Of a stretch of 64,000 nucleotides of DNA, positions 6,001 to 61,642 are shown piece after piece. The translations under genes and the position numbers were made by a program. Source of the DNA: a virus. The notes below the pieces were generated by a model. The model saw only the letters and a list, made by a program, of their open reading frames with translations, had not been told where the DNA came from and ran no database searches. Within the stretch, counting starts at the first letter, position 1; every line of letters starts with the position of its first letter. The stretch spans positions 25,109-89,108 of IMG/VR virus record IMGVR_UViG_3300030098_006058. One strand, written 5' to 3'.

Positions 6001-9000
6001 AATGAGAACTCAGCCTTATGATGAAACTATAGGAAATCTTATAAATAATTCTGGTGAGTCTAAAAATTATGAAATAGTAAGAATTATGGCCCATGAAATA
6101 TTTCATGCTTTAGGAATGGGACATTGTTGGAGAACTTTTAGGACTCAAGGAGTTGTAGATGGATTTAATTGTGCCAATGTAATAAATAGTCCTTGTACAT
6201 CTCCTGGTATACAAGGTAATGGTGCATGTGCAGGTTGGTGGGCATATTATTGCGGGGTATTAGAAACTAATTCTATAATGGCAGCAACAGTAGGTTCAGA
6301 TATGGAATGGAATGATTTCTTTGGAACACCTTCCTGTAATCTAGCAGGAGGAGATAGTGGATTGATAGATCGAACTTCTGTATGTGCTCTTTATGGTTAT
6401 ACTTATGGAAATAGTCCATATAGTGAAGCAGGAACAACTTATAATCAAATAACAAATTCTGTTATAGCCCAAGCTCAAGGAGCATCTACTACGGGATTAG
6501 CAGATGAAGATAATGATGTATGGCAATGTCCTGCATGTGAAGGTGGATTATTTTATACAACTGCTGCAGAGTTTGAACCATTTGTTGGTGGAACAATTTT
6601 ATGGAATCCTGGTGATGGATTAGGAGAAAGATGTTTTGAAGTAAGCGCTATAGATGGTATACCTGAAGGTGAAACAGATACAACTATAACAGGATATGAG
6701 GGTCCTTATGAGGACTGTGATGAATGTCTGTTAACTCAGTTGTCTCCACCTTGTTGGCAATTATCTTTATGTATGCAATGTGAAGCAAATGTAGATGGTT
6801 CGACTCCAATGAATATAATTACAACAACTGATATGAGTTCATATTGTGTCATTGGAGGAATACCAGGTGATGATGTGAATACTCCTGTAGTTGTATTAGA
6901 AGAATATCCAAATGCATGTTGGACAGTTGAATGTGCACTTTCGATAGACTTAGATGAGGCTCTATGTCAAACTGCTGCTCCAGTAACTGTAGAATCTTCA
7001 CATGCAGATTGTCAAATTTGCTGCGATGGTGTAGGGGGACAATGTTTTAGTCTTCATAGTTGTACCACTGGAGAAACATTTATAACTTTTACTAATTTAT
7101 TTATATATATAGGTCAGGTAGTTACTTTAACTCAATATGTTCCTGGAATGACACCGGGAGATTGTTTTACAGTAAGTTTATGCGGTCCTTGTGGTCCTGA
7201 TTGTTTAGGTCTTGGAGCAGTTACAGTTAATGAAACATGGAATGATTGTAAATCATGTGTGACAGAGGGACAGCAAATATATGATTTATTTGATTGTGCA
7301 ACATGTTTTGAAGAGGATTATTGGTCTTATCCAAATCCAATTCCAGCAGGATGTAATTATGTATTAGGTGTTGCTGAAACTGTAGCTATTAGTATTTTAA
7401 ATGGTATGGGTGGATCTGCTTATTTTACTGGAGATCCTGCAGTAGAAGATTCTGAAGGAAACCCATTCTGCATGAAAGTATTTCCAAGTGAGATGAATTG
7501 GTCTCCTTATGCGGTTGATGTTACTCAATCTTGTATATGTAATCCTGATGAACCTACTCCAGTTATAGGCTGTATGGATTCAACAGCATTAAATTATAAT
7601 CCAAATGCGAATACTCCATGTGATGGAACAAATGGAAATCCTGTTATTATACCATGTCAAGAAGATCAAACTATACAAACTAATCCATTAGGATGTTGTT
7701 GTATATATATAGATGATACAGAATATGAAGGATGTTGTGATCAAACAGCTGTAAATTATTGTCCAGGATGTAGTAATTGTTGTCCTGATAATAGCTGTTG
7801 TCAATATAATCCACCTCCCCCTTTAATTTCAGTACAATATGAAGAAGATTGTATAAACTGTTTAAGTTGGGATGAAATAGATGATGTATTCCAGAAAGCT
7901 GCTAAGATGTGTGATGTATGTTGGCCTCCACCAGGAATAACATATAAAGAATATTATTGTAATGAACCATTACCTGTGGTTCCTGATCCATTAGATCCTC
8001 CAATAATTGGATGTCTGGATCCTGTTGCATGGAATTATAATCCTGATGCAGAATTACCTTGTGACGGTTGTTGCGAATATGTAGATGGTTGTACAGATCA
8101 ATCTGCATGTAATTATGATCCTGAAGCAACAGAGACTAATTTAGATGCTTGTATATATCCAAATGAATGTGGAAGTTGTATAGGTGATTTAAGCTGTTTA
8201 GAACCTGGATGTATGGACCCAACAGCTTGTAACTATGATCCAAATGCACAAGAAGATTGTGTAACTTGCTGTGAATATTCTACATGTGTAGGATGTTGTG
8301 ATGAAAACGATCCTAATTATTGTCCAACGTGTACAGTTTGTAATTCTAATTATTGTGTAGCTGGAATATTTGATTGTTTATCTAATAGAGATATTTATGT
8401 ATTTTATGATATGACTTCTATGGGATATGTTGGAGCCGGAACTACACAAGATGATAGACTATTATTTGTAAATGGTATAAAGGATACTATGGATGAAGTA
8501 TATATGTGGTTAGTAAATGGAGGATATCTAGGAAATGTTTATCATTTACCAGTTCAACATGTGTCATGTGCTGTAAATGGGACTGGGATTTGTGGTGGTA
8601 CGGCTCAAGATTATAGTACTTGGATACCAACTGCAACTGCATCAGCAAACTTTGAAAGATATTTAAGATGGTTTACATATCCAGCTCATGGAAATAAAGG
8701 AGCTAATAGTGGAGATTTACCAGATTCAGATAGAGTATCTTTTGTTACTTTATCTAAATGTAATCCAGGTGCACCAAATGCGGGACAACCAACAGATTAT
8801 TGTTTTAATAATATAACATATAATACAGGTGTAGGAGGAACAACTGCTCCAATAATAAAACAGATTTCTGCTAAATATACTTGGGATGGAATAAGTGATT
8901 TTGAAAGCGGTCTTCCTCAACCTCAATTAGATCCAAATGGACATGGGGCTGCGGATGGTCCAGGTTGTGAAGGGCTGTATGATCCATATCATGAATTTGC

Positions 9001-28068: not shown

Positions 28069-31000
28069 ATGAGTGAGAAAACATCAGCATTAAAGGGTAT
28101 ATTTTCAAATACCTCTACAGAATTAGATCCGGGTACGAATTTACCTAAGAGCCCTACTAAAGGTCCTAACGACCCTCCTATTGCTCCTCCCAAAGGTGCT
28201 AAAAGGTATAATAGAGGAGGATCTAATTCTAATTTATGGGGAGATGGTGTAAATAGTGTATCTGATATATTTAAAATCCCTTCTGAAACAGGTAAGATGG
28301 GAACTCCCCCAACAATATTTCCAGGTCCTAGTTATTACGATTTACCGGATGTAGATTTTGATATATACGATAGAGGGACTACTCTTCAACGAAGAGCTAG
28401 TAGGCAAGGTGTAGGAGAACAAATACTAGGAGCTTTGAATCAAGCAGTATTTGGAGAAGTTTTAGGAGGAACTATTGAAGCTCTGGGAGCCTTAGCAGAT
28501 TTTGCATGGGGTGGAATAGGTGAAACGTATGGTAACTGGATGACTGAATTAGGATCTGATATAAGAAATTTTACAAAAGAGATTACTCCTATTTATCAAA
28601 TGTATCCAGGAATGGCTTGGAATCCGTCTGATTCTGGATGGTGGGCTCAAAATGCAGTATCTGTAGCATCTACACTATCATTACTTATTCCTGCTAGAGG
28701 AGTTCAAGTAGCGGGAGGAAAACTTATGATGGGAATTGCTAAGGGTACAAAGAAAATTAATAAGGCTAAAAAAGGAACTAAACTTCATAACTTCGCTAAA
28801 AAAATTGAAAATGCAGCGCACGGTACAAAATGGACTAGAGCTGCAGGTACGGCTGTATTAGGAGGTACTGCTAGTAGATTTATGGAAAATTATAGAGAAG
28901 CTGCAGAAACTGGAGTACATTCTCTTGAAAAAAATCTAAAATTTTTATCTGATCCGGAAAATCTAGAAGAGTTTTTAAATAGTGAAGAAGGTCAGATATT
29001 TTTAGAAGAAACAGGAATTACAAGAAATGATCCTAATATCGTAACTAAAGCTGCACAATATGCTTCCGGAAAAGCTGCATCGCATGCATTTAAAATAGAT
29101 TGGGCTAACTGGGCTTTTGATGTATTTCAATACGGTCTTATGTTTTCTCCTGGGTTATTTGGAAAGATAGGAACACGTACCGGAAAAGGTTCTTCTGCTG
29201 CAACGAAAGCTCAACAAGGATTTTTAAAGGCTCCAAAAAAAGTTAAATCACCTAGATTTGGAAGACTAGGTGCTGCATTTAATTGGACTGTTAAAAAAGG
29301 TAAACCTTTTGCTAAATGGGCTGCATGGTCTGCTACAGAGGGTGTAGAAGAGATGGTTAACTATATTGGTATGCAAGAAGGTATTCGAAGAGGTGATTTA
29401 ATATTAGGTAATACAGGATATACTAATAAAGAATATATAGAATCTGATGACTTTTTAGGACGTTTAGATCACTATATGGAACAAGGTGGATTTTGGACAT
29501 CCGCTATGTGGGGTGCGATAGGTGGAGGTATATTTACCGGGGTTGCAGGTATTAGAAATAGAAATTATCATAAAAAATTAGCAGAACAAAAAGTACAAGA
29601 AATTGGAGAAAGAACAGCGTTAATTACTGAATTAATGCAAGAAAGACAAAGATATGAAGCAATAGGAGATATTGACGGTATGAGAAAGATCGATCAACAA
29701 CTTGCTATTGAATTGGCGTTAAAAGCTGCAGCTGTAGGAAATGTAGACTTATTATTAGAAATGATTAATGACCCTATGATGGATGAAGCTTTAGAGTCAG
29801 GGGGAATGAAAAAAGAAGATATACAAGCTAAAAAGAAAGAAATAATAGAAACTGTTGAGCTAGTTGAGAAATTATATAATTCTAGAATGAATACCCTAAC
29901 AGGGGATAAATATAGTGATGCATTAGGAGCATCTATTGTTAGAATGGAAATGAATATTTCTATGTATCAAAATCTTATTGATGAGATAAATAAACGTATA
30001 GAAGCAGGAGAAACATCAGATGTTGTTTTACAAGATGGTTTTAAAATTGGGTCTAATACTAAAAATAGATATGATTTACAAAGAAAAATACAAGAAGTAA
30101 ATAAAGTACTTCAAATGTTTGAACAAATTAGGTCTGGTCTAGAAAAAGCAAATGCTGAAGCCGGAACTTCTGAAAAAGATAAACAACAAAATAGTTTAGC
30201 TTTAGAAGAAACTAATAAGCAGATAGAAAAATATAAACAACAATTATCAGAGCTTGAAAAGAAATCAACTCTTGCTAAAAAAGATTCTCAAGATAATTAT
30301 GATGCGGGAGTATATAAACAAGAAGAAGACTTTTTAAAGAAAGTCCAAGAGATGGATCAAAGAGGGCTAGCAGAAAAGAAAGCTTTATATACAAATTTAC
30401 GGGATTTAAGTTGGGAACAACTCAATAGATTATTATCAGGAGAAACAACATTAATAGATAAAGATAAAAAAGAAGTAGGAAAAGCAAGTGTTCCAAAAAC
30501 TGAACAAGAGGTTATAGAAGATTCTTTAGGGACAGGTACAGAACAGGCTAAACAATCAGCTCAAACAAGAGCAAAAATACAAGATTTAAGAAACTTTATA
30601 ATAAAAAATAAACCAAGTTTAAAAGCTCTTGATGATTTTATTGCACAATATCCTACTGATCAAGAGTTTCAAAGAGTAGCCGCATTAGCTAGAGAAGCTT
30701 ATGCGCAATATAAAAATGAACAAGATTTTCGTGATAAAAATGACAGCTTTAGATCTAAATTAAAGAAAGTTATTAAAAAGGAAACAGACGAAATAAAAGA
30801 TTATATTGATGAAGCTAATAAGAAATTTTTAGAAGAATTAGATAAACTTACTAAACCTAAAACATCTATGAAAGATGTACGTAAAGGTGTTGAAACAGAG
30901 ATTTGGTATAGAAATTGGATAGAAAATGGAGCTCTTAGAACTTATGGTATTAAAGAATCTCAGGATTATTTAATTAATGAATTATTTGATGAATTTACAC

Positions 31001-34000
31001 CGGTTATTTCTGTTGTTTGGAAAGGAAAAGTAGGTTCTTTATTTATAGACCCAGAAACTAATGAATATATTTTTAGACATGGAAGATCTGGAAAAGAAAC
31101 AATTATACCTGTAGAGCCAGAAACTGCTTCAAATAAATATAGGAACTCTAAAGGACAGTATACTAAAGGAGCTACTTTACGTCATTTAGATATGAGATTA
31201 TTAAAGAATTCATATCTAAATATGAGTATTATAGCAGATGGTAGAACTATTATGATTAATGGTGAATACTATAATATATTAGATTCTGATCCTTCATCAG
31301 CAATTAAATATAATAAAAAAACAGCTGAAGTTTTAGGAGTACATTTAACTAAATGGGATGGAACAAAAGTTTTCATTACTACTCCTGGCCTTAAATATGA
31401 GATAGCTAATATAATTGAAACTTTGGAAGCTGTTAAAAGAATTCAGTTTAAAAACTTAGTGCAAAATGATTTTATGATCATTGAACATGAGGGTACAGAA
31501 TATATAGTTCAATATGAAAATGCTGGAATGAAAGGTTTATTCCAGGATTACCAAGAATTAACAGTTAGATTAGAAGATGGTACTCCAGCTTCTTCCGATA
31601 TAAAGAAAGAAGTTTTAAAAATCGCTAATCAAAATCTTACAAAAGCAATAGAACAAGAAATTAATAATATTAAAGTTAAATATAATGAAGCTAGAACATC
31701 TAATAATGTTACTCCCGCCAAAAATACAGAAACAACTCTTGAGTCTACACCCGAACAAGAGGGCAAAATTTCTGAGGACCCAGGGAAGGTCAAACAAATT
31801 ACGCAATCCGAAATAAATTCAGAGAAAATAGAAGAATCTTCTGAAGGAAAAAAGGAAGAATTAAATACAAAAGAAGAAAAAGATTTAGCGAACGGTGCAC
31901 GTAATAGTATTGAACAAAATTCCTCTTCAATTACTGAAGAAGAAAATCAAAAGAATACAAAAGAAGAAGAGACACAGAATAAAGAACAAACGAAAAAAAA
32001 GCTAGAAGAGGTTATAGGCTTAGGCTCACAGCATGAATCAAATGAAAGTACTACACCTGAAGATGAGATGAATAAAGATCAAAATACTTTAGGATTAATT
32101 TCTTCTCCAACTGATACAGATCCAGATAATTTAGATGCACAATATCCATCAGGTTTTATTACAGAAATGGCCTGGATTAATATAGGAACAAAAGAAAATC
32201 CTTTAATTGTTAATTTACTTGATGGTAATGGTAATTTAATTGGAAATAGAATAGGTATTGGAACTGTTCCTTATATAGATAAGACTATAGAAGAAATGTC
32301 TAATCTTGAGAAGAGTTTATTAGAAGCAGGAAATGCTCGTATTGTAAAACTATATCATTGGAAACCTGTAGAATCAAATGTTGATGGTGTAATGACAGTT
32401 TTAACTGAAGGAAGTCGAGCTATTGTAGATGAATCTCAATTAAAAGAATTAACTAATGACGAAGGAAAGCCATTATTTAGAATATGGAAAACCAATACAG
32501 TAAAAGTAAGTGATTATATATCAACAGATGTATTAAATAGTCCTAAATTTGGGGTAGGGACTAAAATTATTTTAAGAGTTGAACCAAATGATCAATTCTT
32601 CTCATCAAATGAACCTAATAAAGTAACTATTACATTAAGATTAGCATCTAATCCATCTATTATTTTAACTAAAAGACAAGGAGTTTTTGAACAAGATGGA
32701 GAACTTTATGATCAAGTAAAGTCAATGTTAGAATCGGGAGATATTAAAGATATAGAAGCCGAAGTAACTGGAAAAACAAATGGATATGTTATCAATATTA
32801 AAAGGAATGGAAAATCAGTTGAATCTAGTTTAAATACTTTAGAAGGACAATTTCCTTTAATATTAGGTTATGCTCAAGGAGATGTTATGAGAATTGAAGG
32901 AGAAGAATATCAAGATATTATAGTTCCAGATAGTCCTTATTATGAGTCTGGTGCTACTTATTTAATTATACCTGCATCTAATGGAACATATATACCAGTC
33001 AGGTTAAATACACAAAAATTAACAGATTTTGCAGCTGAAAAAGTGTTAGAAATAATATTATCTGAGATTACAAATCCTGAACAAAAAAGAGCGCAAGTTA
33101 ATAAAATTGTTAATGTTTATTCTAAAGTTACTAGTGATAAGGTATTGGCTTTAGATAATTATGAATTTAAATTTAAATATGGTGATTTTAATATTGGTAT
33201 ACAATATAATATAGAAGGAAGCGGTAAAAACGCTAAAAACAATTTAAAAAATGCAATAGAAGGTAAACCTTTTCATTTCAAATTATATGATGAATTTGGT
33301 CTTCAAGTTAGTAAAGGAGAGTTTAAAGATGGAGATACTATAAAACAAAAAACATTAAGAGAATCTTCAGAATTAAATATAAATGAAAACGGTCCTATAA
33401 AAGAGGCTATTATAGAACATTTAAAAACTAAATATTATAATATTCAAAAAAATGAATTAAATAGTGACCAAAAATTTATATCTCCCCTAAAAGATGGTAA
33501 AGTATATAAAAATTACTTAGAGTATTTATCAGACCCAGAATTAAAAATAATAACTCATGATATTCCAAGCGGATCTCAAACAAAATTCTTTAATACAAAA
33601 GTATTTTTTAAACTTACATCTAAACCAATTAAAGCTACTTCTAAAAAGAAGAGTGCACCCTCTTTCCTTAGTTCAAGTGACAAAAAAGTTATTAATAGTG
33701 TAGAAACTGAAAATGAAAATATTTCTGAAATTCCTACTGAATATGATGAAGTAAAAGGAAAAGTAAAAAAATCAGGTCGAAGAAAATACACTGTTACAGA
33801 ACAAACAGATAATAGTCAAAGAAATCCTAATATTGAGACATTTGATCCAACAAAATTAGCAGGTATCCCGAAAGATAGTACTGTAGAAAGTTCAGATAAT
33901 TTATCTGATAACGAGAATAATATTATATCAGATAAATCTGAAGAAAGAAAAAATAATAAAAGTGATGATAATTTTGATGTTCAATTAAGACAAAGATATG

Positions 34001-37000
34001 AAACAGATCCTGCATCTGATATACTATCTGAAAAAGAAGTACAATGGTTTAAAGATAAATTTGGAGAAGAGGGATTAGAAATAGCCCAAAGAATTAAATA
34101 TATTATATTAAAAGATGGCCGAATGGCATATGGAAAATACCATAAAGGTATGGTTACATTAGCACAATTTGGTAAAGAAGGTACAGCTTATTGGGAAGCT
34201 ATGCGTCGTATAATGGATTTACATCTAACACCAGAAGAAAAAAATGATTTAACTCTTGCAGCTATTAATAGATGGAATGATACAGATCAAAAACAAGTTG
34301 AAATAAATATTGCTAGAGGTTTTATGGAATTCATGTTAACTGAAAATGACTCATCTCTTTCTGGTATTTTAAAAAGATTCTTTAGAAATCTTCTATATTA
34401 TATAAAAAATATGTTAGGTATGAAGCCTAGTATAGATCAAATGTTCAAAGATTTATCTAATAGAACTTATACAAAATATAATGTTAAAGAATTAAATGAA
34501 TTATCTCAAGTTCAAAATGTAGCTAAATTACGAGAAAAGAAAAATTATACAGAACTAGAGGTTGAAGATATAACCTCAAGTATAAACTTTATGTTATGGG
34601 AACATTTAAATAATAAATATGGAGATAATTGGGTAGATATTTTAAGTAAACCTGTAGAACTTGCAAAAGAATATGAAAAAATTAGAATAAGTTGGAGAAA
34701 TAAGTCAGAAGAAAGATTGAAAGATCCAAATTTAAGTGAGCTTAATCGAAGAATCCATTCTAATATATTAGATATAACTGATGAATCTGTATTTTATACC
34801 CAATTTGAAAAAGTAGGTAAAAATAGAATCAATTTAGAAAATGTTACTGATGTTGGATTTAGAGATTTAGCAGTAGAAGGGTTGATAGAATGGGGTTATA
34901 AATTTAAATTTAAAAAAGATTTTACTCTAGATTACGACTCTAAACCAGAAATAACAGAAGCAATTCCTAATGAAGAAGAAGTATCTACTGAAGATATTGG
35001 AATTGAAGATATAGAAAAATTAGAAAAGATATATGGTATGAATTTTTGGCATCAAGACCAAAGATCTACATTATCTAAAGAGGTTAAAATAGGATTAAGT
35101 TTTATTAAGAGCCGTGAGAGAAGTAATATAACAGGTAGTTATAAATTTATACCATTTGATGATATATATAATTATATTTCTGCTGCACTTTCTAATGTAC
35201 CTCAAAAATATATAGAATCTACATTAAGAGGTTTACAAAATAAAACAGTAAATGGTCAAAATGTAATGCCAAGCGTTATTAGAGTATTTGATCAAGCTTC
35301 CGACCAATGGAAAAGAAAATTCTTAACACATTTCAATAAACAAAATATTTTATTTAAAACATTAGTTATTGAAGGAGGTAAAACTAAAACTGTATTTACT
35401 AATAGAAATGGTATCCACCAACAAATTATGAATGAATGGATAGCAGCACGAGGTTTAACTAATATCTTTACAGAAAGAGTAGGAAAACCCGACGAAATAA
35501 ATATAGAAGAAGTTGAAAAAATATGGAGTAAAACAAAACCAGACATTTTCTATGATCAATTAATGCCTATTTACCAAAAATATATTAAATTATTAGGTAA
35601 TCAAGCTGAACAAACAAAAGGAAAAGAAGAATATTTAAAAGTAATGACTCTTATTCTTGAAAAAATTGGGATAACTATACCAAAAGATGTTCAAAATGGT
35701 ATTATAAATGATGAAAAAATGAATGTGAAAGATTTACATTCATATATGACGGGTACAAATTCTGTATCTTATATGTTCACTAATAAACTTTTAAAAGGAC
35801 TTAGTCCATATATAGCAGAGAATCTAGAAGGGATGGCTCTTGGTAGACTTGCAGAGCTAGTTGCACAGTATAGAGTTGATAAATATTTATCTTCATTTAT
35901 TGGAGGAAACAGAAAACCTATATTTTCTATTAATCTTAATACATTTGGTTCAGATAGAGTTAATTTATTAACAGATCCTAGAACGTCGAAGCAGACAATA
36001 GATGAATATTTAAGTGATTCTTTTTATAATCCTCTTCCAGATAATAACAATTATATGCATCTTATTTTAAGATTGTTACAAATCCCTGAAGTAAGAGATA
36101 AATTTGTATTAAGTACTTTTGATGTTATACAAGAAAGAGGAGAATTTCAAGCAGGTAAAACATACGACGAATTAACAGAAGCAGTTTCTTGGAAAACAAG
36201 ATATGCTATGTTTTATAATAATGGATTACCATTTGCAGAAATTAATACAGGTACTAAAAGTGATAAAACAAATTTTCAATTTGTATTAGTTCCTAAAATA
36301 AACTATATGAATAGACGTCTTGGATTATGGACATCTCCTCATCAAGAAAATGCAAAAACATTTGTAGATACAGCTATAGATTTATTATATCCTTTAGCAT
36401 TAGCAGAATACAATAATATAATAAGAACAGAAAATGAATTATTTGGTCCTACTCCAATAAGTCCACGGGAAGAAATAAAAAATGTACATTATAAAGATGT
36501 TCCAGGAGATAGAAAAGGAAATGGATTAAGATTCTCTATGTTGGATATATTAAATGATTCTCAATATGAAATATTTACTCCAGAAGGTAGATTAAGAAGA
36601 CCTAGTAATGGGCTGACGCATGAAGATATGAATAGAATGCAAGCTTTAATAAAAACAGGTATTAAAAATTTCGTATTAAGAGAAGTGAATAAAACTTTAG
36701 ATTCAATGTCTAAATCAGGGGTCGTTAATAAAGTTAAAGAAGGCCATTATACAAATAATGGTTTACCTAGTGAAACATTAGCAGGAAGAGTAGGTACTGA
36801 AAATAATATATATGACTCCTTAGTTGGGTTTGCTATAAACGATTTAGTATATAAAAATTATCTCTCTACAATATTTGGTCCACCGGCCTTTTATTATAAA
36901 AATATTGTAGATAAAATGAAAAGAGGTTACCAAGATGTAACTCCAGGTTATAATGTAATAGTTGGTAAAAATGGTATGAAATCAAAGTTTAACCATGTAA

Positions 37001-40000
37001 CATTACGGGATATTTATAAACAACGACCTGAAAATGTTGCAAGGATAAAGAAAATATTAACAGATGCAGGAGTTTCTAATAAGGTAGCAGATAGAATTTC
37101 ACAAGCATATGCAAGTGTAATTAAAACTGATGGTCAAGGATATGTAACATTAGAATTTTACAAACAGATTTTAGAATCTACAGGACAATGGAGCCCTCAA
37201 CATCAAGAGTATTATGAAAAATATTGGGTTACAGGTAAAAAAATGCCAGCAGAAGCTAGAGATTTATTATTAGATCCTCTTAAAACATTCTATTTTGGAC
37301 CAAGAGTACATACTAATTCATTAGGAAATACAAGATTACGATGGGAACAATTAAAACATTCGGTTGTACCATTATTAAGAGAATGGACTGAAACTACAAA
37401 ACAAGAAGGAGAATTTACTTTAAATAATCTTAGACAAAGAATGGAAGGTGTAGGACAATATAAAGGTTTTACTCCAATAGATATGGTTGATTTTGAATCA
37501 GGTGTAAAAGTAGGTGCTAACGGTCTTACAGAATTTAATAGACCAGAAACATGGGTAGTTGAACAATTTGAAACTAAAAATTTAAGATTACCACAACTTA
37601 TTAAAACTAAAGTTAAAGATCCATTAGATGGAACTCAATGGGCTAAATTAATTTTAGAGAATTTATCTGTAGATAATAATTATACAATATTTGAAAAATC
37701 TTTTAATGGAGAAGAATTAAGAAAATTATATAACGATATATATGCTGAGAAAATTAAAAGATCTTCAGAGAAACTTATGAAACGAATAGGTTGGAATTCA
37801 TTTAAACAGAAATGGGAAAATAGAGACGAACTTATAAATACGCCAGAATTTGCACAAGCTCAATTAGAGTTTTTGAAAAAAGTAAGAGCTATTATAGAAG
37901 ATGGATTGACACAAAGAAATATGTCAGGTGTATATTTTGATGCTTTAGATTTAAGGGAAGTAAATGATATGATTACTAAATTTGATTTTGCTGTTCCTTT
38001 AGCATTCCCGACGTTTGCTAAAACATTTGAAAATTTACTTAATTCAGTTGTTAAAAATAATGTATTAAAACAAAGAGTACATGGTATGTCTGCTGTACAA
38101 GTAGCTGAATTTGGATCAGGAGTAGGTCAATTTACTGATGAATTACAAATTAAAAGATCTCCAAGTGGTGGTATATATGCAGAAGCGAGATTGTCTTATG
38201 ATATAGCTCTTAAATTAGGTTACCAGGGTAAAGTAGGTGAAATAAAAAATATAGATAAAAATATCTTAGAAGTATTAGGATATCGTATTCCAACTCAAGG
38301 TAAAAATTCTATGATATCTTTAAAAGTAATTGAAATATTACCAAGTACTATGGGAAGTATTATTCAGGTTCCTTCAGAATTAACTACAATGATGGGACAA
38401 GATTTTGATATTGATAAATTATATCTTATGTTCCCAGAACGTACTAAAACAGGGACAAAAATTGAAGCGTTCTCATACGACACATATTTATCTAAAGGAA
38501 GAAGTTTTGATGGTATCGGAGAGCAGAGTTTAAATAATGCTTTATTTGATATTAGAAAGGCTATACTAGAATCTAAACATACTGCTAGAGAAATTTTAGA
38601 TCCCCTTGATACAACTACTTATGAAGAAAAAATACGTGAATATGAACGTTTAGGAATAATACAGAAATTACAGAACTTGGCTGCAAATGCAACATCGACA
38701 GATGTATTCTTTGAAATGATTAATAAGGATGCTAATATGCTTATTGGTTTATTTTCATTACATGCTACAGGACATGCAATGGCCCAAGAAATGGGATTAG
38801 AATTAGATGATTTTTATTCTATTAATATAAATATTAATGGAAATGAATCATTAACTGATTTATCTCGTATTTTTGATTATTATGGTGGATTTATATCTAC
38901 TAATATTTCTGAAGATCAAAATGAATCATTAGATAACGGTACTAAACAACAAATAGGTAGGGTAGGAATTAATGTTTATAATCACGGTGTAAAAGCGCTT
39001 TTAACTAGAGCTGGGATCCCAGGAGGGATTGCTATTGATTTTATAAATCAAAAAATAATTAGAGAATATTTAGAGCTAAGACAGACTCAACCGGAAACAG
39101 TAAGTGAATTAGAATTAGCTGAACAATTAGCAGCTAAATATAAAGTTGCACAAGAATTCCAAGAAGCGAGAAAAGGTGCTAGATTTTTTACACCTACTCC
39201 AAAAAGCTTAACAGAAGGTCTTTCATTGGATTTAAAAGATAGAGAAAATGCTATTCAACAAATACAATTATTATCAGACTTTTTAAAATACCAAAAAGTA
39301 GGTAAAGATTTATCTAAATTTAATAAAATGGTATCTCCGGAGACTCTTAAAAATACAAGTAGAATGAGTTTCTTCGAAGAGTGGAAAAGAATAGAGGAAT
39401 ATTTAAACAGTGAAGATTCTTCATTAAGATGGACAAAAGGAAAAACAGCTAGATTAGAAGCATATGAAAAGTATGGTGTTGATGCAGCGTTAGATTTAGT
39501 AGGACATTTCTTACCTTATAATACTGAAGCATTTTTAGCATTAAAAGATAAAATTAGTGAAGTATTGGCTATTAGAGATGGTATATTAAAACCAGATCAA
39601 ATAGATGTAATAAATAGTTTAGCTTTATATTGGTTATTTACTCAAAGAACAGAAGATAATCCATTACATAGAGCTTTATATGCTACAAATGAAGAGAATG
39701 CTATAACAGGAGAATATAATTCATCTTTAATATCAAAAAGATTATTTAGTAAAAAAGAAAGTTTAGCTTCTGAGTTATTAAAATTAAAGAAAGACTATCC
39801 AGAATTAAGAAATGATATTTTATTTGGGCTGTTATTCCCACATCGTGATAATGCTATAAAGTCTTTACAATTAATAGCTTTTAATAATAGTTCTAAACTT
39901 AGTCCTATTGTAAGATCTAGAATTTCAAATCGATGGAATGAGATATTAAATTTAGGAAAAAAATGGCAAGGTCAAAAATTAGAAGAATTAAGTCCTCTAG

Positions 40001-43000
40001 ATAGGCTTCAAGCAAATAAAGATCTTAGATTACAAAAATTTGGATTACAATTAGCAGCTTATTCTATAATAACATCAGGATTTATGATGGGCCCTAATTC
40101 TTTTATTGATTTATTACCTATTTCTTATCTTGAAGGTGCAGGATTTACTAGCTTTTTTAGAAAACAAATAAGAGGATTACAAGATCCTGGATTCTTTGGT
40201 GACCATGCTATAGATCAAATTATACGTAATATATTTAAAGATAAAGGATTAGTCCATTCGGTAAAATGGAGCAGTTTGCAAAAACCCTCTCTTAAAGGAT
40301 TATTAAGCTTTAATAAAAATACTTATTTTGTACGATTTGATTCTAATAAAGGATTAAAACAACATGAAGATCCTAGCACTGCGGCTAAATATATAAAATC
40401 ATACCATAGAGATACTACAGGAAAAGGAAGAGGAAAATGGAGATTATTTAGAATGGTAGGAAATCCACAACAAAATGGTGCTTATTATGAAGAAATATCA
40501 CCTTTAGGAGAAAGATGGAAATTTGTAGAATTATTTGAAGGAGGTTTAAAAGAAAAAAGTGTACATCCAGAGAATACAACTAGATTTAATATTACCCAAG
40601 AAAATGATATACGTGATAATACTACAGAAGGTGGAAATCCTAACAATGTATCTAATTTTGGAGAAAGTATGGGTTTATTTAGAATAGCCCCAATGTTTAA
40701 ACAATCTATTATAAAAGATTTAGATAATCGATTAATAGAATGGGTTCAAAAACATTATGGATTTAGTATTCAGGAATATAATAATCTTAAGAAAAGATTA
40801 GGAATTGATGCAGTGGGTATGGCAGATCTTTTAAATAGAACTTTATATTTATCAAGCTCAAGAGACCGTTTAACTGTACCAGAAGAAGTAGGACATGTTT
40901 TTATAGCATCATTACCTGAAAATATACAAAGAGAAATAGCAAGTTTAGCAGGCCAAACTAAATTACATCAAGAAGTTGCTAAAGAATATGCTAATGTATA
41001 CCAAACACCATTACAATTCCAATTAGAAACTGCTGGTAAGTTATTAGGTATGTATATTACACAGCAAGAAACAGGAGAAACTCTTAAAATAGAAGAAGCG
41101 GAAACTCCTGGTTTACTTGGAGCATTAAAACGTGCCTGGAACTGGCTTTGGAATAATATATTTAAATTATTTAATAAAGACATAGCTAGAACTGAATTAG
41201 AAAAGAATTTAGACGAATTATTTGGTCCTATGGCATCTAAAATTTATATGGGAATGAATCCTACAGAAATAAATAAAGATGCATCGGCTGAAAATTTAAA
41301 AACATTTGCAGAATTAGGAATAAATAAATTCTATAATCTAAATAAAGCAGCAGATAATATGAAAAGTAAAATTATAAATGCTGTAAATAATGTACAAACT
41401 TTTGTAGATGAAACGGGTAGAAAAGTAGATCAAAGATTAAGTAATGATAGTGTATCTGATTTAATTAACAGAGAAAAAGAAAGATTAGAAAGAACATTAG
41501 GGTGGAAAAAATCTGATTTCTTAAAAGAGCTTTTAAAAGAGAGTGAGGGAATCCAATTACCAGAAGTGAACGGAAAATTCTATACTATGGATGGTATAAA
41601 ATTACATAGAGTTTCTGATGTTATTCAATTATACCAACAACCGTTCGAAGAAGCTAAATTTGCTTCTTTAATAGCAGCAAAAAATAAAAGAGAAGGGAAT
41701 GAATTTAATACTAAAGATAGAGTATTAAAATTGTGGGAATTTCTTAGAAAAGATGTAGGAACAGGTATTCATACAGCTTTAGAAGCTATCATTAATAATA
41801 AAGATCCTAGGGAAGCTTTAACAGAATTAAATTTAAATCCTATCTCTAAAGCCGCTATTTTAAATAATTTACAAGAACTAAAAGATTGGGTAAATAAAAG
41901 AAAAGCAGCTGGAAGTAAACTACATGCAGAAGTAAAAATAGGAGACAAAATTGATTTAATAGGTGGTACAATAGATGTTTTAGAACAAACAAGTAATGGT
42001 AGAATTATTTTACATGATTGGAAAACAAAAATGTTAGGTAAATTTGTTACATTAAATCAAAAGTTACCAGCATTTAAAGAAGGTCCATTAAGTGGATTAC
42101 CTAATACTAAATTAAATCAATATAGATTACAACTTTCGCTATACAAACATATTATAGAACAAAAGGGATTAAAAGTAGATGACATACAAGTCCATGGTAT
42201 AGAAGTAGATACACAATGGAGTGAAAATGGAATTTTCTTTAATAATATTAAGTTTTTATCTGATAGACAAACAGCAAAGTCTACATTAAAGAATATAAAA
42301 CCTGTAAAATCTTACATAATTACTAATATTATGCGGGATATTAATCCTAGAAGTACTGCTAATATTAAAAAAGAGATAGATAATATATCTAAAGTAGCTG
42401 ATATATTAGCAGAAGCTAGAAATAATATTTTAACAAAAATAGCAGCACATAAGAAAACAGGAGATAAAACATATAGAGCTAGTTTAGAATCTTTATTAAC
42501 TAAATTAGATGAATTGAGTGAACGACAAGGGATAGCAGAATTTATGAAACAAGCTGTAAGAGATATTAATTTAGCGCATAAAAGATTATTAGAATTACAA
42601 GAAAAATCAGCTATTAATGCAAAAGATTTAATTGCAATAAGGAATTTTGTTGGAACTTATGATATTTTAGATAGAATGTTATTGATGTTACCAACATTAG
42701 TAGAAACAGATCAAATAAAAGAAATAGAAAACTTTATTGCACCAGCTATTGCAAAAAGACAAATGATTGATAGCTTATTCCTAGAATTAGGAATACCATT
42801 AGTGGCTAGTTTAATTATGGAAAAAACTACTAATCCAGACATGACTCTAGAAAAAGTAACTAAGCAATTAACCGAAGCTAGCCGTGATATAGGGTATTTA
42901 GAAAGATGGTTAGATGCATTAGGAGATTCAAATGATACTATATTAGCTAATGTAGATAAAATAATTAAAGATAAAAGAGGAGAAGTACAAAGATTTGAAT

Positions 43001-45204
43001 TAGATCTGATATATGGAAGTGATACTCAAACTGGATTGTATGATATGCTTAAAGAATTAGAAGATTATCAAAAATCACAAGGAAAAAATGTTAATCATTT
43101 TAGAGAATTGTATGATTTCATGTTAGAAAGAGATTCTAAAGGAGAACTAACAGGAGGTATCGTACAAAAAACTACAAAAGAATGGAGAGATAAAGTAAAA
43201 GTTCTTATTGAAAATGCTCAGAAGCAAGGTAGAAAACCTACAAAAAGAGAATGGGCAGAATTTTATAATAATAATCCTATTGAAATAAATCCACAATATA
43301 CTTCATTAATGAATCTTAGTGAAAATGATACTAGAAGAAATTTTTATAAATATTGGGTTGATACATATCAAAGTGCACAAAAACAATTACCAGCACATAT
43401 GAGAAAAGCTTGGGGTGGATTTATGTTACCTTCTATAAGAGCAACACATCAAGAGCAATTATTAGAGAAAAAAGGAGGTGTACATAAAAAAGGATTAGCA
43501 GCTGTAAAAGAAGTATTTACTGAACATATGGCAATACATGAAGATGATGTACATTATGGACAACTATTAAATGAAAAAGGAGAACCTTTAGATTTTGTAC
43601 CTATTCATTATAATAGATTAATTGGTACTGAAGAAGATCAATTACATCCTGAAGATGTTACCTATGATTTAGCATCTCAATTAAGAATGTATACTACAAT
43701 GGCTACTAACTTTGCTAAAATGCAAGAAGTATTACCTGAATTAGAAATTATTAAACAGGCTATTAAAACAAGAAGAGTCGTTAAAAATTGGAGTGGAAAA
43801 CCGGTTATAGATCCTGTAACACAGCAACCAGTAACAACGCCAGGTATACAGTCTCATGCTTATAATAGATTAATTGATTACTTTGATATGGTAATTTATG
43901 GAAAGAGAAAAGCTAAAGGAAATGTTAGAGAGATAGCAGGTAAAAAAATCACTTCTGATAAACTATCTGACTCATTCTTAGGATATAATGCATTAAGAGT
44001 ACTTGCACTTAATAAATGGGCGGGTATGGCTAATATAGGAATGGGTACTCTTATGAATTGGATCGAAGGGTTTTCTGCACAATTTGTAACAATAGAAGAT
44101 TTAACAAAAGCAACTGCTACTTATTATGGGGATAGTAAAGGAATAATTGATGATATCCTCCAACGAAGACCGTCGTCTAAAACAGGATTACTAAATGAAG
44201 AATATAATGTTTTACAAAATTTTGATGAATTTGGTAAAAGAATAGATCATAGAAATATTGGTCTTAGAAGTTTACATTTAGGCGCTTCTTTCTTTATGAT
44301 GTCTGCTGGTGAGCATATGATACAATCAAAATTAGCTCAAGCTTTTATGCATAATAAGAAGTTTAAAATTTCAGGTGGTAAAGAAATAAGTTTATATGAT
44401 GCTTATACAGTAAAAAATGGAAGATTAGTATTGAATAAAGAGGTAGCAGAACAATGGAGTGATGAAGATAGAGTTAGATTTTCTGAAAAAATTCAAGCTG
44501 TTTATCAACGTATGCATGGTATATATAATACAGCAGATAAAGCAGCTCTTCAAAAATATGCTATAGGTAGATGGGTTATACAATTCCGTAAATGGATGCG
44601 CCCAGGATGGGTAAGAAGATTTGGAGGTATAGAAAAAATGTTTTATGATAAAGAATCAGAATTTAAAAATCCTGAGTGGAATGAGAGATTTGATTCTTAT
44701 TGGGAAGGAAATTATGTAACTACATTTAAATTTTTAAAACAATTAGCTTCTGAAGCTGTCAAAGGTAAATTCCAAGCTAAACTTAATTGGAAAGATCTTT
44801 CACCGTGGCAAAAAGCTAATTTAAAAAGAGCTTTTGGAGAAGTTAATGCTTTCTCTATTTTAATGTTAGCTAGCTATTTATTAATTCCAGAAGGAGATGA
44901 CAAAGATGATGCTCCATGGAATACAATTTATGTATTAAAACGTGTACAACAAGAGTTAGGATTCTATATGTGGATTCCAAATACTATTGATATTTTAAAA
45001 GCTCCCGCTGCTAGTATAACTACTATAGAAGTATTCTTTAAATTCTTAGAACAATTAGCTGATCCTACTGAACAGTATGAAAGAAAGACAGGAAAATATG
45101 AAAAAGGAGATTATAAAATTGAGAAAAGATTTAAAGACTTATTACCGTTTAAAGAATTGTGGACCAGGGCTGAGGATAAACTTAAATGGTTTGATTTAAA
45201 ATAA
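28069..45204 (+). CDS. Giant virion protein: beta'-like RNA polymerase, PD-(D/E)XK nuclease and accessory domains
   Basis: A single 5,711-aa frame. Visible order: hydrophobic stretches near 190-215 and 478-496; coiled coil ~500-1000; acidic linker 1210-1360; beta-rich part to ~1870; second linker ~1880-1980; a degenerate HExxH site (WEAMR, 2042-2046); a 'TGTKSDK' segment (2728-2733); RNA polymerase core with YRIPTQG (3405-3411) and GQDFDID (Asp3445, 3447, 3449); EEVGH (4272-4276); PD-(D/E)XK nuclease with His4568, Asp4636, Asp4650, Lys4652; long helices ~4700-5100; a C-terminal hydrophobic segment (FSILMLASYLLIP, ~5591-5603). The RxPT...DxDxD arrangement matches cellular beta' (NRAPT...NADFDGD) and crAss-like virion RNA polymerases. 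Expected to be ejected and to transcribe early genes. Where it might be proteolytically cut is unknown; the two linkers are candidates. Confidence 0.8.
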   Translation: MSEKTSALKGIFSNTSTELDPGTNLPKSPTKGPNDPPIAPPKGAKRYNRGGSNSNLWGDGVNSVSDIFKIPSETGKMGTPPTIFPGPSYYDLPDVDFDIYDRGTTLQRRASRQGVGEQILGALNQAVFGEVLGGTIEALGALADFAWGGIGETYGNWMTELGSDIRNFTKEITPIYQMYPGMAWNPSDSGWWAQNAVSVASTLSLLIPARGVQVAGGKLMMGIAKGTKKINKAKKGTKLHNFAKKIENAAHGTKWTRAAGTAVLGGTASRFMENYREAAETGVHSLEKNLKFLSDPENLEEFLNSEEGQIFLEETGITRNDPNIVTKAAQYASGKAASHAFKIDWANWAFDVFQYGLMFSPGLFGKIGTRTGKGSSAATKAQQGFLKAPKKVKSPRFGRLGAAFNWTVKKGKPFAKWAAWSATEGVEEMVNYIGMQEGIRRGDLILGNTGYTNKEYIESDDFLGRLDHYMEQGGFWTSAMWGAIGGGIFTGVAGIRNRNYHKKLAEQKVQEIGERTALITELMQERQRYEAIGDIDGMRKIDQQLAIELALKAAAVGNVDLLLEMINDPMMDEALESGGMKKEDIQAKKKEIIETVELVEKLYNSRMNTLTGDKYSDALGASIVRMEMNISMYQNLIDEINKRIEAGETSDVVLQDGFKIGSNTKNRYDLQRKIQEVNKVLQMFEQIRSGLEKANAEAGTSEKDKQQNSLALEETNKQIEKYKQQLSELEKKSTLAKKDSQDNYDAGVYKQEEDFLKKVQEMDQRGLAEKKALYTNLRDLSWEQLNRLLSGETTLIDKDKKEVGKASVPKTEQEVIEDSLGTGTEQAKQSAQTRAKIQDLRNFIIKNKPSLKALDDFIAQYPTDQEFQRVAALAREAYAQYKNEQDFRDKNDSFRSKLKKVIKKETDEIKDYIDEANKKFLEELDKLTKPKTSMKDVRKGVETEIWYRNWIENGALRTYGIKESQDYLINELFDEFTPVISVVWKGKVGSLFIDPETNEYIFRHGRSGKETIIPVEPETASNKYRNSKGQYTKGATLRHLDMRLLKNSYLNMSIIADGRTIMINGEYYNILDSDPSSAIKYNKKTAEVLGVHLTKWDGTKVFITTPGLKYEIANIIETLEAVKRIQFKNLVQNDFMIIEHEGTEYIVQYENAGMKGLFQDYQELTVRLEDGTPASSDIKKEVLKIANQNLTKAIEQEINNIKVKYNEARTSNNVTPAKNTETTLESTPEQEGKISEDPGKVKQITQSEINSEKIEESSEGKKEELNTKEEKDLANGARNSIEQNSSSITEEENQKNTKEEETQNKEQTKKKLEEVIGLGSQHESNESTTPEDEMNKDQNTLGLISSPTDTDPDNLDAQYPSGFITEMAWINIGTKENPLIVNLLDGNGNLIGNRIGIGTVPYIDKTIEEMSNLEKSLLEAGNARIVKLYHWKPVESNVDGVMTVLTEGSRAIVDESQLKELTNDEGKPLFRIWKTNTVKVSDYISTDVLNSPKFGVGTKIILRVEPNDQFFSSNEPNKVTITLRLASNPSIILTKRQGVFEQDGELYDQVKSMLESGDIKDIEAEVTGKTNGYVINIKRNGKSVESSLNTLEGQFPLILGYAQGDVMRIEGEEYQDIIVPDSPYYESGATYLIIPASNGTYIPVRLNTQKLTDFAAEKVLEIILSEITNPEQKRAQVNKIVNVYSKVTSDKVLALDNYEFKFKYGDFNIGIQYNIEGSGKNAKNNLKNAIEGKPFHFKLYDEFGLQVSKGEFKDGDTIKQKTLRESSELNINENGPIKEAIIEHLKTKYYNIQKNELNSDQKFISPLKDGKVYKNYLEYLSDPELKIITHDIPSGSQTKFFNTKVFFKLTSKPIKATSKKKSAPSFLSSSDKKVINSVETENENISEIPTEYDEVKGKVKKSGRRKYTVTEQTDNSQRNPNIETFDPTKLAGIPKDSTVESSDNLSDNENNIISDKSEERKNNKSDDNFDVQLRQRYETDPASDILSEKEVQWFKDKFGEEGLEIAQRIKYIILKDGRMAYGKYHKGMVTLAQFGKEGTAYWEAMRRIMDLHLTPEEKNDLTLAAINRWNDTDQKQVEINIARGFMEFMLTENDSSLSGILKRFFRNLLYYIKNMLGMKPSIDQMFKDLSNRTYTKYNVKELNELSQVQNVAKLREKKNYTELEVEDITSSINFMLWEHLNNKYGDNWVDILSKPVELAKEYEKIRISWRNKSEERLKDPNLSELNRRIHSNILDITDESVFYTQFEKVGKNRINLENVTDVGFRDLAVEGLIEWGYKFKFKKDFTLDYDSKPEITEAIPNEEEVSTEDIGIEDIEKLEKIYGMNFWHQDQRSTLSKEVKIGLSFIKSRERSNITGSYKFIPFDDIYNYISAALSNVPQKYIESTLRGLQNKTVNGQNVMPSVIRVFDQASDQWKRKFLTHFNKQNILFKTLVIEGGKTKTVFTNRNGIHQQIMNEWIAARGLTNIFTERVGKPDEINIEEVEKIWSKTKPDIFYDQLMPIYQKYIKLLGNQAEQTKGKEEYLKVMTLILEKIGITIPKDVQNGIINDEKMNVKDLHSYMTGTNSVSYMFTNKLLKGLSPYIAENLEGMALGRLAELVAQYRVDKYLSSFIGGNRKPIFSINLNTFGSDRVNLLTDPRTSKQTIDEYLSDSFYNPLPDNNNYMHLILRLLQIPEVRDKFVLSTFDVIQERGEFQAGKTYDELTEAVSWKTRYAMFYNNGLPFAEINTGTKSDKTNFQFVLVPKINYMNRRLGLWTSPHQENAKTFVDTAIDLLYPLALAEYNNIIRTENELFGPTPISPREEIKNVHYKDVPGDRKGNGLRFSMLDILNDSQYEIFTPEGRLRRPSNGLTHEDMNRMQALIKTGIKNFVLREVNKTLDSMSKSGVVNKVKEGHYTNNGLPSETLAGRVGTENNIYDSLVGFAINDLVYKNYLSTIFGPPAFYYKNIVDKMKRGYQDVTPGYNVIVGKNGMKSKFNHVTLRDIYKQRPENVARIKKILTDAGVSNKVADRISQAYASVIKTDGQGYVTLEFYKQILESTGQWSPQHQEYYEKYWVTGKKMPAEARDLLLDPLKTFYFGPRVHTNSLGNTRLRWEQLKHSVVPLLREWTETTKQEGEFTLNNLRQRMEGVGQYKGFTPIDMVDFESGVKVGANGLTEFNRPETWVVEQFETKNLRLPQLIKTKVKDPLDGTQWAKLILENLSVDNNYTIFEKSFNGEELRKLYNDIYAEKIKRSSEKLMKRIGWNSFKQKWENRDELINTPEFAQAQLEFLKKVRAIIEDGLTQRNMSGVYFDALDLREVNDMITKFDFAVPLAFPTFAKTFENLLNSVVKNNVLKQRVHGMSAVQVAEFGSGVGQFTDELQIKRSPSGGIYAEARLSYDIALKLGYQGKVGEIKNIDKNILEVLGYRIPTQGKNSMISLKVIEILPSTMGSIIQVPSELTTMMGQDFDIDKLYLMFPERTKTGTKIEAFSYDTYLSKGRSFDGIGEQSLNNALFDIRKAILESKHTAREILDPLDTTTYEEKIREYERLGIIQKLQNLAANATSTDVFFEMINKDANMLIGLFSLHATGHAMAQEMGLELDDFYSINININGNESLTDLSRIFDYYGGFISTNISEDQNESLDNGTKQQIGRVGINVYNHGVKALLTRAGIPGGIAIDFINQKIIREYLELRQTQPETVSELELAEQLAAKYKVAQEFQEARKGARFFTPTPKSLTEGLSLDLKDRENAIQQIQLLSDFLKYQKVGKDLSKFNKMVSPETLKNTSRMSFFEEWKRIEEYLNSEDSSLRWTKGKTARLEAYEKYGVDAALDLVGHFLPYNTEAFLALKDKISEVLAIRDGILKPDQIDVINSLALYWLFTQRTEDNPLHRALYATNEENAITGEYNSSLISKRLFSKKESLASELLKLKKDYPELRNDILFGLLFPHRDNAIKSLQLIAFNNSSKLSPIVRSRISNRWNEILNLGKKWQGQKLEELSPLDRLQANKDLRLQKFGLQLAAYSIITSGFMMGPNSFIDLLPISYLEGAGFTSFFRKQIRGLQDPGFFGDHAIDQIIRNIFKDKGLVHSVKWSSLQKPSLKGLLSFNKNTYFVRFDSNKGLKQHEDPSTAAKYIKSYHRDTTGKGRGKWRLFRMVGNPQQNGAYYEEISPLGERWKFVELFEGGLKEKSVHPENTTRFNITQENDIRDNTTEGGNPNNVSNFGESMGLFRIAPMFKQSIIKDLDNRLIEWVQKHYGFSIQEYNNLKKRLGIDAVGMADLLNRTLYLSSSRDRLTVPEEVGHVFIASLPENIQREIASLAGQTKLHQEVAKEYANVYQTPLQFQLETAGKLLGMYITQQETGETLKIEEAETPGLLGALKRAWNWLWNNIFKLFNKDIARTELEKNLDELFGPMASKIYMGMNPTEINKDASAENLKTFAELGINKFYNLNKAADNMKSKIINAVNNVQTFVDETGRKVDQRLSNDSVSDLINREKERLERTLGWKKSDFLKELLKESEGIQLPEVNGKFYTMDGIKLHRVSDVIQLYQQPFEEAKFASLIAAKNKREGNEFNTKDRVLKLWEFLRKDVGTGIHTALEAIINNKDPREALTELNLNPISKAAILNNLQELKDWVNKRKAAGSKLHAEVKIGDKIDLIGGTIDVLEQTSNGRIILHDWKTKMLGKFVTLNQKLPAFKEGPLSGLPNTKLNQYRLQLSLYKHIIEQKGLKVDDIQVHGIEVDTQWSENGIFFNNIKFLSDRQTAKSTLKNIKPVKSYIITNIMRDINPRSTANIKKEIDNISKVADILAEARNNILTKIAAHKKTGDKTYRASLESLLTKLDELSERQGIAEFMKQAVRDINLAHKRLLELQEKSAINAKDLIAIRNFVGTYDILDRMLLMLPTLVETDQIKEIENFIAPAIAKRQMIDSLFLELGIPLVASLIMEKTTNPDMTLEKVTKQLTEASRDIGYLERWLDALGDSNDTILANVDKIIKDKRGEVQRFELDLIYGSDTQTGLYDMLKELEDYQKSQGKNVNHFRELYDFMLERDSKGELTGGIVQKTTKEWRDKVKVLIENAQKQGRKPTKREWAEFYNNNPIEINPQYTSLMNLSENDTRRNFYKYWVDTYQSAQKQLPAHMRKAWGGFMLPSIRATHQEQLLEKKGGVHKKGLAAVKEVFTEHMAIHEDDVHYGQLLNEKGEPLDFVPIHYNRLIGTEEDQLHPEDVTYDLASQLRMYTTMATNFAKMQEVLPELEIIKQAIKTRRVVKNWSGKPVIDPVTQQPVTTPGIQSHAYNRLIDYFDMVIYGKRKAKGNVREIAGKKITSDKLSDSFLGYNALRVLALNKWAGMANIGMGTLMNWIEGFSAQFVTIEDLTKATATYYGDSKGIIDDILQRRPSSKTGLLNEEYNVLQNFDEFGKRIDHRNIGLRSLHLGASFFMMSAGEHMIQSKLAQAFMHNKKFKISGGKEISLYDAYTVKNGRLVLNKEVAEQWSDEDRVRFSEKIQAVYQRMHGIYNTADKAALQKYAIGRWVIQFRKWMRPGWVRRFGGIEKMFYDKESEFKNPEWNERFDSYWEGNYVTTFKFLKQLASEAVKGKFQAKLNWKDLSPWQKANLKRAFGEVNAFSILMLASYLLIPEGDDKDDAPWNTIYVLKRVQQELGFYMWIPNTIDILKAPAASITTIEVFFKFLEQLADPTEQYERKTGKYEKGDYKIEKRFKDLLPFKELWTRAEDKLKWFDLK

Positions 45205-60054: not shown

Positions 60055-60115
60055 CTAAATTTTTTATTATTTAATACTAATCTGCTAATCTGGATTTATT
60101 ATGATTAAAATGTTT

Positions 60116-60225
60116 TAGGATAGCTAGGAGTCAAACCTAGAAATAGGGTTCTATTTCGGATAACTAGCACATCCTCTCAGCATATCTCGATAATATACTA
60201 AACATATCTCAGCCATGTCTATCCT
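60116..60225 (-). tRNA. Atypical tRNA-like structure, class II features, isotype uncertain
   Basis: On the - strand a perfect 7-bp acceptor (60225-60219 with 60123-60117), extended outwards by flanking complementarity to 14 bp, encloses a T-arm CTAGG-TTTGACT-CCTAG. Before that lies a 6-bp variable-arm-like hairpin (AAATAG-AACC-CTATTT). An anticodon-like stem GGATG/TATCC has loop TGCTAGT. The 5' part reads ATGGCTGAG as in Ser/Leu D-arms. The RNA is 110 nt, about 20 too long, and the anticodon loop lacks T33. It may be a decayed or tRNA-mimicking element. The rest of the gap 59975-60268 appears empty. Confidence 0.45.
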
Positions 60226-60268
60226 AAAACATTAAGATAAATTGGTGCTAAGAATATACAGTATAAGA

Positions 60269-60699: not shown

Positions 60700-60819
60700 A
60701 ATTATTTAATTTTATTTTAACATTATATTAACATTAGATATGTATATTGTCTTCAATGAAAATAGACATATCTAAATTTATTTACATTATCATGATGATA
60801 ATAGTATTTGCTTTAAGCG

Positions 60820-61505
60820 TATAAGCCTAGTGATACTTTCAATAATAATGGGTTTAACACTCTAGCTCTTTAGCACTGTGTTACATCGTCCGGTGGACTA
60901 CTTTCCCGCGATAAGCTGGCCGGCCTATCTTTATTATCTAATAATATCACTGGCTCATACATAAACAATAGCAAGATCAGAACAGTCCATGGTTATTCTG
61001 CTAATGCGATCCATAATATAATCCCAACTTACATCCCTAATTAAAGAGAAATCTTCCGAAAATATATTAATTAGTTCTATACAGAACTAGAGGACCCATT
61101 AGACCAGCCTAACAACGTGGTGTTATCGTAAATATCCATTCGGATAAATAGGATAATCAGCACTACATGGTGACGTGCTTTACAAGACCCTGTTAATATC
61201 CCTGCTGGGAGTGGTGTATGAGGATTTACTCTCATACCTAATGCAGCCTCACGGTTCAACACTTGCTATTATTTATAATGATTTATACAAAAAAACTATG
61301 TGAACAGGAAATGGTATTTATTCACACAAAGTATAACAGGTAGTTAATAATTAAATACAACCTGCTCACATAGTTATAGGATAGGGATATTATGACCGCA
61401 CAAAAAAGAAGCTGTAGCCAAACAATAAAAGCTAGAACTAAAAACACCGGTTGAGAGCATTACTGTATTCTCTATCCCTATTATAATTGCCAGCAGGGAG
61501 AATTT
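60820..61505. ncRNA. Candidate large structured non-coding RNA region
   Basis: No convincing gene lies between 60700 and 61568. The stretch holds many hairpins: 60855-60860/60878-60883, 61133-61137/61142-61146, 61159-61163/61175-61179, 61216-61222/61231-61237, a long one at 61294-61308/61361-61375 (14 of 15 bp) extended by 61314-61320/61352-61358, and 61381-61389/61473-61481. A perfect 10-bp helix links 61199-61208 to 61490-61499 over 280 nt. Local GC is higher than in nearby genes. Flanking genes are all on the - strand, which is the likely direction. Large ornate phage RNAs such as GOLLD and ROOL occur near tRNAs, but I cannot assign a class. 60700-60819 shows nothing. Confidence 0.5.
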
Positions 61506-61568
61506 TGTGTTCAGAACGACCCGGTATGTTCTTATTAACTCATCTCCCCCTTTTAAACTCTGGACTTG

Positions 61569-61642
61569 TGGAGGTGGCCGGAATCGAACCGACGTTCTTA
61601 AGCAGTATTCATCATACTGCGAAAGCAAACCACTGCACCCCC
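61569..61642 (-). tRNA. tRNA gene, isotype uncertain
   Basis: A 74-nt RNA with a 7-bp acceptor (GGGGGTG at 61642-61636 with CACCTCC at 61576-61570, one G-U), discriminator A, and a canonical T-arm GTCGG-TTCGATT-CCGGC. The D-arm is short (GTG/CGC). The anticodon arm is a stem CAGTA/TACTG with loop TGATGAA, in which position 33 is G, not T; reading from the preceding T would give GAT. The ends resemble bacterial tRNA-Cys but the anticodon does not. No CCA is fully encoded (it continues CA). Possibly degenerate or specialised. Confidence 0.6.

Follow-up and report, generated by a model that had tools for sequence, protein, structure and literature searches.

What occupies a gap in a minus strand otherwise tightly set with genes? 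The window analysed here, a stretch of 64,000 nucleotides, covers positions 25109-89108 of an 89,108-bp virus contig. Comparison with PHROG assigns its terminase, portal and major capsid proteins to head-and-packaging families. By tblastn, the capsid protein is 44% and the portal protein ~35% identical to those of gut crAss-like phages, and the family A DNA polymerase is ~30% identical to theirs. On the strength of these matches, we classify the phage by sequence as a divergent crAss-like phage. Two of its reading frames, of 5,711 aa (28069-45204, plus strand) and 3,256 aa (71-9841, plus strand), are unusually large for an 89-kb genome.

On the minus strand, genes for helicases, primase, exonuclease and RIIA/RIIB adjoin a region, from 60700 to ~61705, that contains no gene of the strand's tight set. 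A sequence-only reading of the window had marked 60820-61505 as gene-free and densely complementary, and had suggested a large structured RNA, possibly of a new class. The gene-free gap was confirmed and the core interpretation, a structured RNA, was right; taken as a whole, that reading is partly supported.

Homologues and architecture of the element

DNA polymerase relatives were gathered from IMG/VR as the source of homologues. Six loci (L002-L007) contain DNA similar to the RNA region, one of which, L002, is ~96% identical to the window over 2.2 kb. Motif scans and a covariance model, which for searching comprised the P7 arm only, added L008, L010-L014, L016, L018, L091 and L093, bringing to 17 the contigs, window included, with an RNA homologue upstream of DNA polymerase A. 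A pattern restricted to the 5′ core recovered seven contigs, all previously known from P7, and both ends therefore belong to one element. Among clade relatives (those with a polymerase identity of 62% or more), all 14 with sufficient upstream sequence carry the RNA; in the seven that lack it, the contig extends no more than 2.4 kb beyond the polymerase on that side. A sister lineage with a polymerase ~50% identical yielded no homologue, nor did a single-pattern scan of the genome collection, and blastn against annotated phages and plasmids returned only chance-like matches to the RNA region. Matches of L082, L083 and L087 to the pattern GCCGGCCAGCTTATCGCG were taken as chance, with only 18-22 bp matched, and a weak model match in L020 (34.5 bits) was set aside because the upstream sequence there resembles a helicase gene and lacks the core motif.

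Homologous noncoding blocks in L002-L007, together with alifold z-scores, place the whole conserved element at 60729-61500 on the minus strand, with approximate ends (5′ at ~61500, 3′ at ~60729). The span of 60820-61505 was thus nearly right, but stopped short of the 3′ end, as the conserved element continues to ~60729. Across homologues the core measures ~300-550 nt, and the RNA reaches up to ~770 nt with its 5′ extension.

Read 5′ to 3′ on the minus strand, the element begins with the P0 domain, H1, P1, a conserved strand, the P2 hairpin and a variable P3, and continues with UGUAAAGnnnGUCA, P8, a variable region holding P5 and P6, P8′, ACU, P1′ and, directly, P7. The universal core (60819-61277) consists of the P1-closed 5′ domain and the P7 arm; it occurs in all homologues with enough sequence, and its elements follow the same order in close and distant relatives. 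The P0 helix, in the 5′-most domain (61381-61481; 61473-61481 paired with 61381-61389), and the 5′ hairpin H1 (61294-61375) occur in the close group only. P1, whose 5′ arm (61262-61276) pairs with a 3′ arm at 60961-60975, closes a branched 5′ domain, to which the 17-bp P7 arm with its bulged A is joined without a spacer. Within this domain lie the P2 hairpin (61216-61237), the motif UGUAAAGnnnGUCA (61171-61184), kept from the window to the most distant relatives, and P8, with a 5′ arm (61166-61170) just after a conserved GUCA and a 3′ arm (60987-60991) just before a conserved ACU. The P5 stem-loop (61117-61163) was delineated by alifold and the P6 helix (61001-61102; 61092-61102 paired with 61001-61012) in the close group. 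The 5′ side of P7 (60944-60960) reads GUAUGAGYCAGU... and the 3′ side (60819-60836) ...ACU-A-GRCUUAUAC, with the bulged A at 60828; the stretch that P7 encloses is highly variable in length among homologues.

The sequence-only reading had also placed the region beside tRNA-like genes. Such neighbours are real: elements at 60112-60228 and 61566-61642, both on the minus strand, flank the region, and ARAGORN calls neither. The first is a class II tRNA-like element, traced by nhmmer and alignment in RNA-bearing relatives (L003:2848-2955, L011:5623-5722, L013:5666-5765 and others), and stands 0.6-1.0 kb downstream of the RNA in every such relative examined except L005. It has a long acceptor, a long variable arm and a canonical T loop, with anticodon loops such as UGCUAGU, UGCAUGG, UCAUGG and UCCGGG that do not carry U33, and is possibly a tRNA mimic. 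The second has tmRNA-like ends, scores 42.3 bits, below the cut-off of 47, and among close relatives occurs only in the window and L002.

The sister lineage carries a second, unrelated covarying RNA of ~240 nt, found in 28 contigs (for example L069:4676-4944, minus strand; L024:4088-4310; L046:4450-4717; L075:4125-4409). Its position is 3-4 kb upstream of the polymerase gene, and it is probably encoded on the strand opposite to that gene. Eighteen of its 48 predicted pairs show two-sided changes (alifold z, -11.0). Three of its loci gave no Rfam match at E≤1, and none was found in annotated phages.

Conserved base pairing on the minus strand

The dense complementarity noted from sequence is reflected in folding energy: the minus strand of 60760-61560 folds at -222 kcal/mol, better than its shuffles (z, -3.3; plus strand, -2.6). 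Conservation of individual helices was then read from homologues. The covariation counts that follow are numbers of sequences rather than independent events, and the distant group carries most weight because the close group comprises only five or six sequences.

In P7, all 17 pairs have 100% of cells paired across 12 distinct sequences, five pairs show two-sided changes, and none of 500 shuffles attained the covariation score. L013 and L014 show additional exchanges, C-G to G-C and U-A to C-G, and retain the bulged A. The arms of P1 largely differ between groups, yet each pairs best with its own partner: in ten sequences cognate arms give -12 to -18 kcal/mol, against means of -3.5 to -6.8 for swapped arms. 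Two two-sided changes in P1 occur within the close group. All five pairs of P8 form in each of 11 distinct sequences (covariation score 0.93; 0.27 when shuffled), and at the place of P2 the distant relatives have a hairpin, with a loop that is mostly AGGAAC, in which four of six pairs show two-sided changes; both sets of counts come from alignments of short, hand-cut arms and lean towards the proposed pairing. P2 in the close group has two-sided changes in four of its seven pairs.

The remaining helices belong largely to the close group, for which RNAalifold independently gives 23 pairs with two-sided changes. Four of these fall in P6, where cognate arms mostly outperform swapped ones. H1 is the hairpin that had been described as 14/15 bp; its arms (61361-61375 and 61294-61308) pair at 15 of 15 positions on the minus strand, with one G-U, and all 15 pairs are 100% paired in the close group, three of them with two-sided changes. 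The hairpin is thus real, and compensatory changes maintain it as they do P1, P7, P8 and the P2 hairpins. At P0, three unrelated arm pairs, in the window, in L003 and L006, and in L007, are each self-complementary. P5 folds in the window, L002, L003 and L007 (z, -3.0 to -4.7) and weakly in L006 and L005. The P5 sequence of L002 differs from that of the window and still folds, despite ~96% identity elsewhere, a replacement that suggests module swapping inside the RNA.

Two further candidates were rejected. A perfect 10-bp helix spanning ~280 nt (61490-61499 with 61199-61208), part of the sequence-only reading, is present but at chance level: two such pairs were found against 0.36 expected, 11% of Markov shuffles do equally well, and the helix has a C-A mismatch in L002, is absent from the other homologues and clashes with a local hairpin. 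The 3′-terminal inverted repeat TTTAGATATGT/ACATATCTAA was not counted as a helix either, since L005-L007 break one pair without compensation.

Three measures bear on strand. At the fifth pair of P7, eleven sequences have G-U and one has U-G, an exchange that fixes the minus strand because the opposite strand would have an A-C mismatch. Covariance-model scores are 81 bits for the minus and 26 bits for the plus strand, and the alifold z of the alignment is -16.9 and -8.2, respectively. Translation, which would have spoken against an RNA, finds no support. Substitutions in the RNA region are spread evenly over codon positions (36/40/26, 34/45/35 and 41/40/38), whereas the neighbouring 82-aa gene (16/6/28) and the polymerase (100/68/212) show the usual third-position excess; indels in the RNA region break frame. 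These patterns argue against coding, and the element is not translated. That the element is a structured RNA on the minus strand we regard as close to certain.

Leader, known RNA family, DNA element or intron

In every case the RNA is followed closely, on its own strand, by a run of genes that leads to DNA polymerase A, and in most distant relatives the next start codon is 31-37 nt away. Both features would suit a 5′ leader that acts in cis, like a riboswitch, attenuator or autoregulatory element, on the same-strand replication and small-gene operon. The genes that follow tell against it. The next gene varies among relatives (82-aa, 53-aa, lipoprotein, MENI-type and L018 types), so that the first downstream genes come from at least four different families and are not homologous. 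L006 and L007 have an additional gene separating the RNA from the operon, and the distance from RNA to polymerase ranges from 0.7 to 3.4 kb. The next gene also often starts just after a AATGTnTAAnTnAAA-type motif, which precedes other genes too, giving downstream genes a leader-like motif of their own. A terminator scan of the RNA locus found no intrinsic terminator; a promoter scan there found promoter-like sites no commoner than in shuffles. Because the RNA stays while the small genes change, and because the motif is shared, the comparison of loci favours a stand-alone RNA, which is probably the correct description; we consider a leader unlikely.

The motif AATGTnWAAnWnAAA stands ~20-30 nt before several start codons (window 60724 and 62121, minus strand; L005:5698, 5839 and 7361; L008:3503; L010:2452; L013:4836) and may serve these phages as a promoter or as a signal for the start of translation. 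Downstream of the RNA in L008, L011, L012, L016, L091 and L093 is a small lipoprotein-like gene (MKDNSKLSDVSW...LLSSCS), then another small gene, whose product resembles the MENI-type protein of L010, L013 and L014; the two are perhaps a spanin-like pair.

The RNA could also belong, as a diverged member, to one of the large phage RNA families already known. For GOLLD and ROOL a more conserved 3′ part and a variable 5′ part, tRNA-like neighbours, a phage host and a size of this order are reported (PMC12286853), traits similar to those of the present RNA. GOLLD is a large structured phage RNA, often beside tRNA genes, with conserved 3′ and variable 5′ regions (PMC12286853); the present RNA has this division too, as a resemblance only. 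Its helices differ from those of GOLLD and it is confined to one crAss-like clade. ROOL is likewise a phage RNA of several hundred nucleotides near tRNA genes, without a known protein partner (PMC12286853), and the class II element may give the present RNA a comparable neighbourhood, though ARAGORN calls no tRNA there. The homo-oligomeric cage of GOLLD, and the pseudoknots and cage assembly of ROOL, are features of those RNAs, the one described here being known from its sequence.

Over a 2-kb region of the window, Rfam 15 models gave no match at E≤5 except to the tRNA-like element, and the RNA loci of four relatives gave, at E≤2, a single snoRNA match below its cut-off. Scanning the whole window against Rfam likewise assigned this RNA to no family. 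The sequence-only reading had raised GOLLD and ROOL as identities; a search with their models and those of OLE and the introns returned nothing, and neither identity is supported. For tmRNA and permuted tmRNA (RF00023, RF04321), likeness is limited to the neighbour at 61566-61642 on the minus strand, with its tmRNA- or tRNA-like ends, whereas the large RNA has no detected tRNA-like domain, conserved reading frame or match; in it ARAGORN found no tmRNA, and cmscan found only the separate 77-nt element. Membership of a known family is thus very unlikely, and we place the RNA among the large phage RNAs, broadly taken, as a new family of its own that matches none in Rfam 15. Literature searches, which covered only a minority of subscription papers, found no earlier description of it, nor of any large structured RNA in crAss-like phages.

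A noncoding, AT-rich stretch that contains inverted repeats and neighbours replication genes might also be a DNA element, such as a replication origin or a packaging or recombination site, its repeats forming DNA hairpins. This is highly improbable, as conserved G-U pairs occur on one strand only, P7 exchanges G-U for U-G, and both the model score and alifold z are much stronger on the minus strand. Least tenable is a group I or group II intron or its remnant, for although large ribozymes occur in phages and P7, a bulged-A helix near the 3′ end, may be loosely like intron domain VI, the Rfam intron models gave no match at E≤5, no flanking exons or split gene were recognised on either side, complete small genes follow, the P7 loop is long and variable, and no domain-V-like hairpin was recognised.

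Proposed role and significance

We favour a new family of structured noncoding RNA that stands alone, is encoded on the minus strand with the replication genes and serves in trans as a scaffold; we give this reading a probability of about 0.6. Such an RNA would be transcribed during infection and would act as a compact RNA or RNA-protein scaffold. Conserved sequence within a helix, a strictly kept bulged nucleotide and conserved junction strands are usual for binding sites. All three traits are seen here, in P7 with its bulged A and at the P8 junction, which is why we propose a scaffold; among roles in trans, a scaffold or RNA-protein function remains a tentative choice. Docking sites would be provided by the conserved sequence inside P7, the bulged A and the conserved UGUAAAG, GUCA and ACU strands, and the partner could be a phage or host protein, or another RNA surface. 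By analogy, the role may be comparable in style to that of the ornate phage RNAs GOLLD and ROOL.

A bolder and quite unlikely possibility is that this is a clade-defining RNA with a new role, working with the co-conserved class II tRNA-like element, whose anticodon loop is not a normal one. Together they might, for example, make up a two-part RNA-protein particle that interacts with the host's translation or RNA processing in infected cells.

The large structured phage RNAs GOLLD and ROOL are still without known function. The family described here now has a defined secondary structure, a fixed strand and locus and a linked tRNA-like partner, which opens it to targeted probing, structure determination and deletion tests. 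That every testable member of the clade has it indicates that the phage life cycle retains a role for this RNA.
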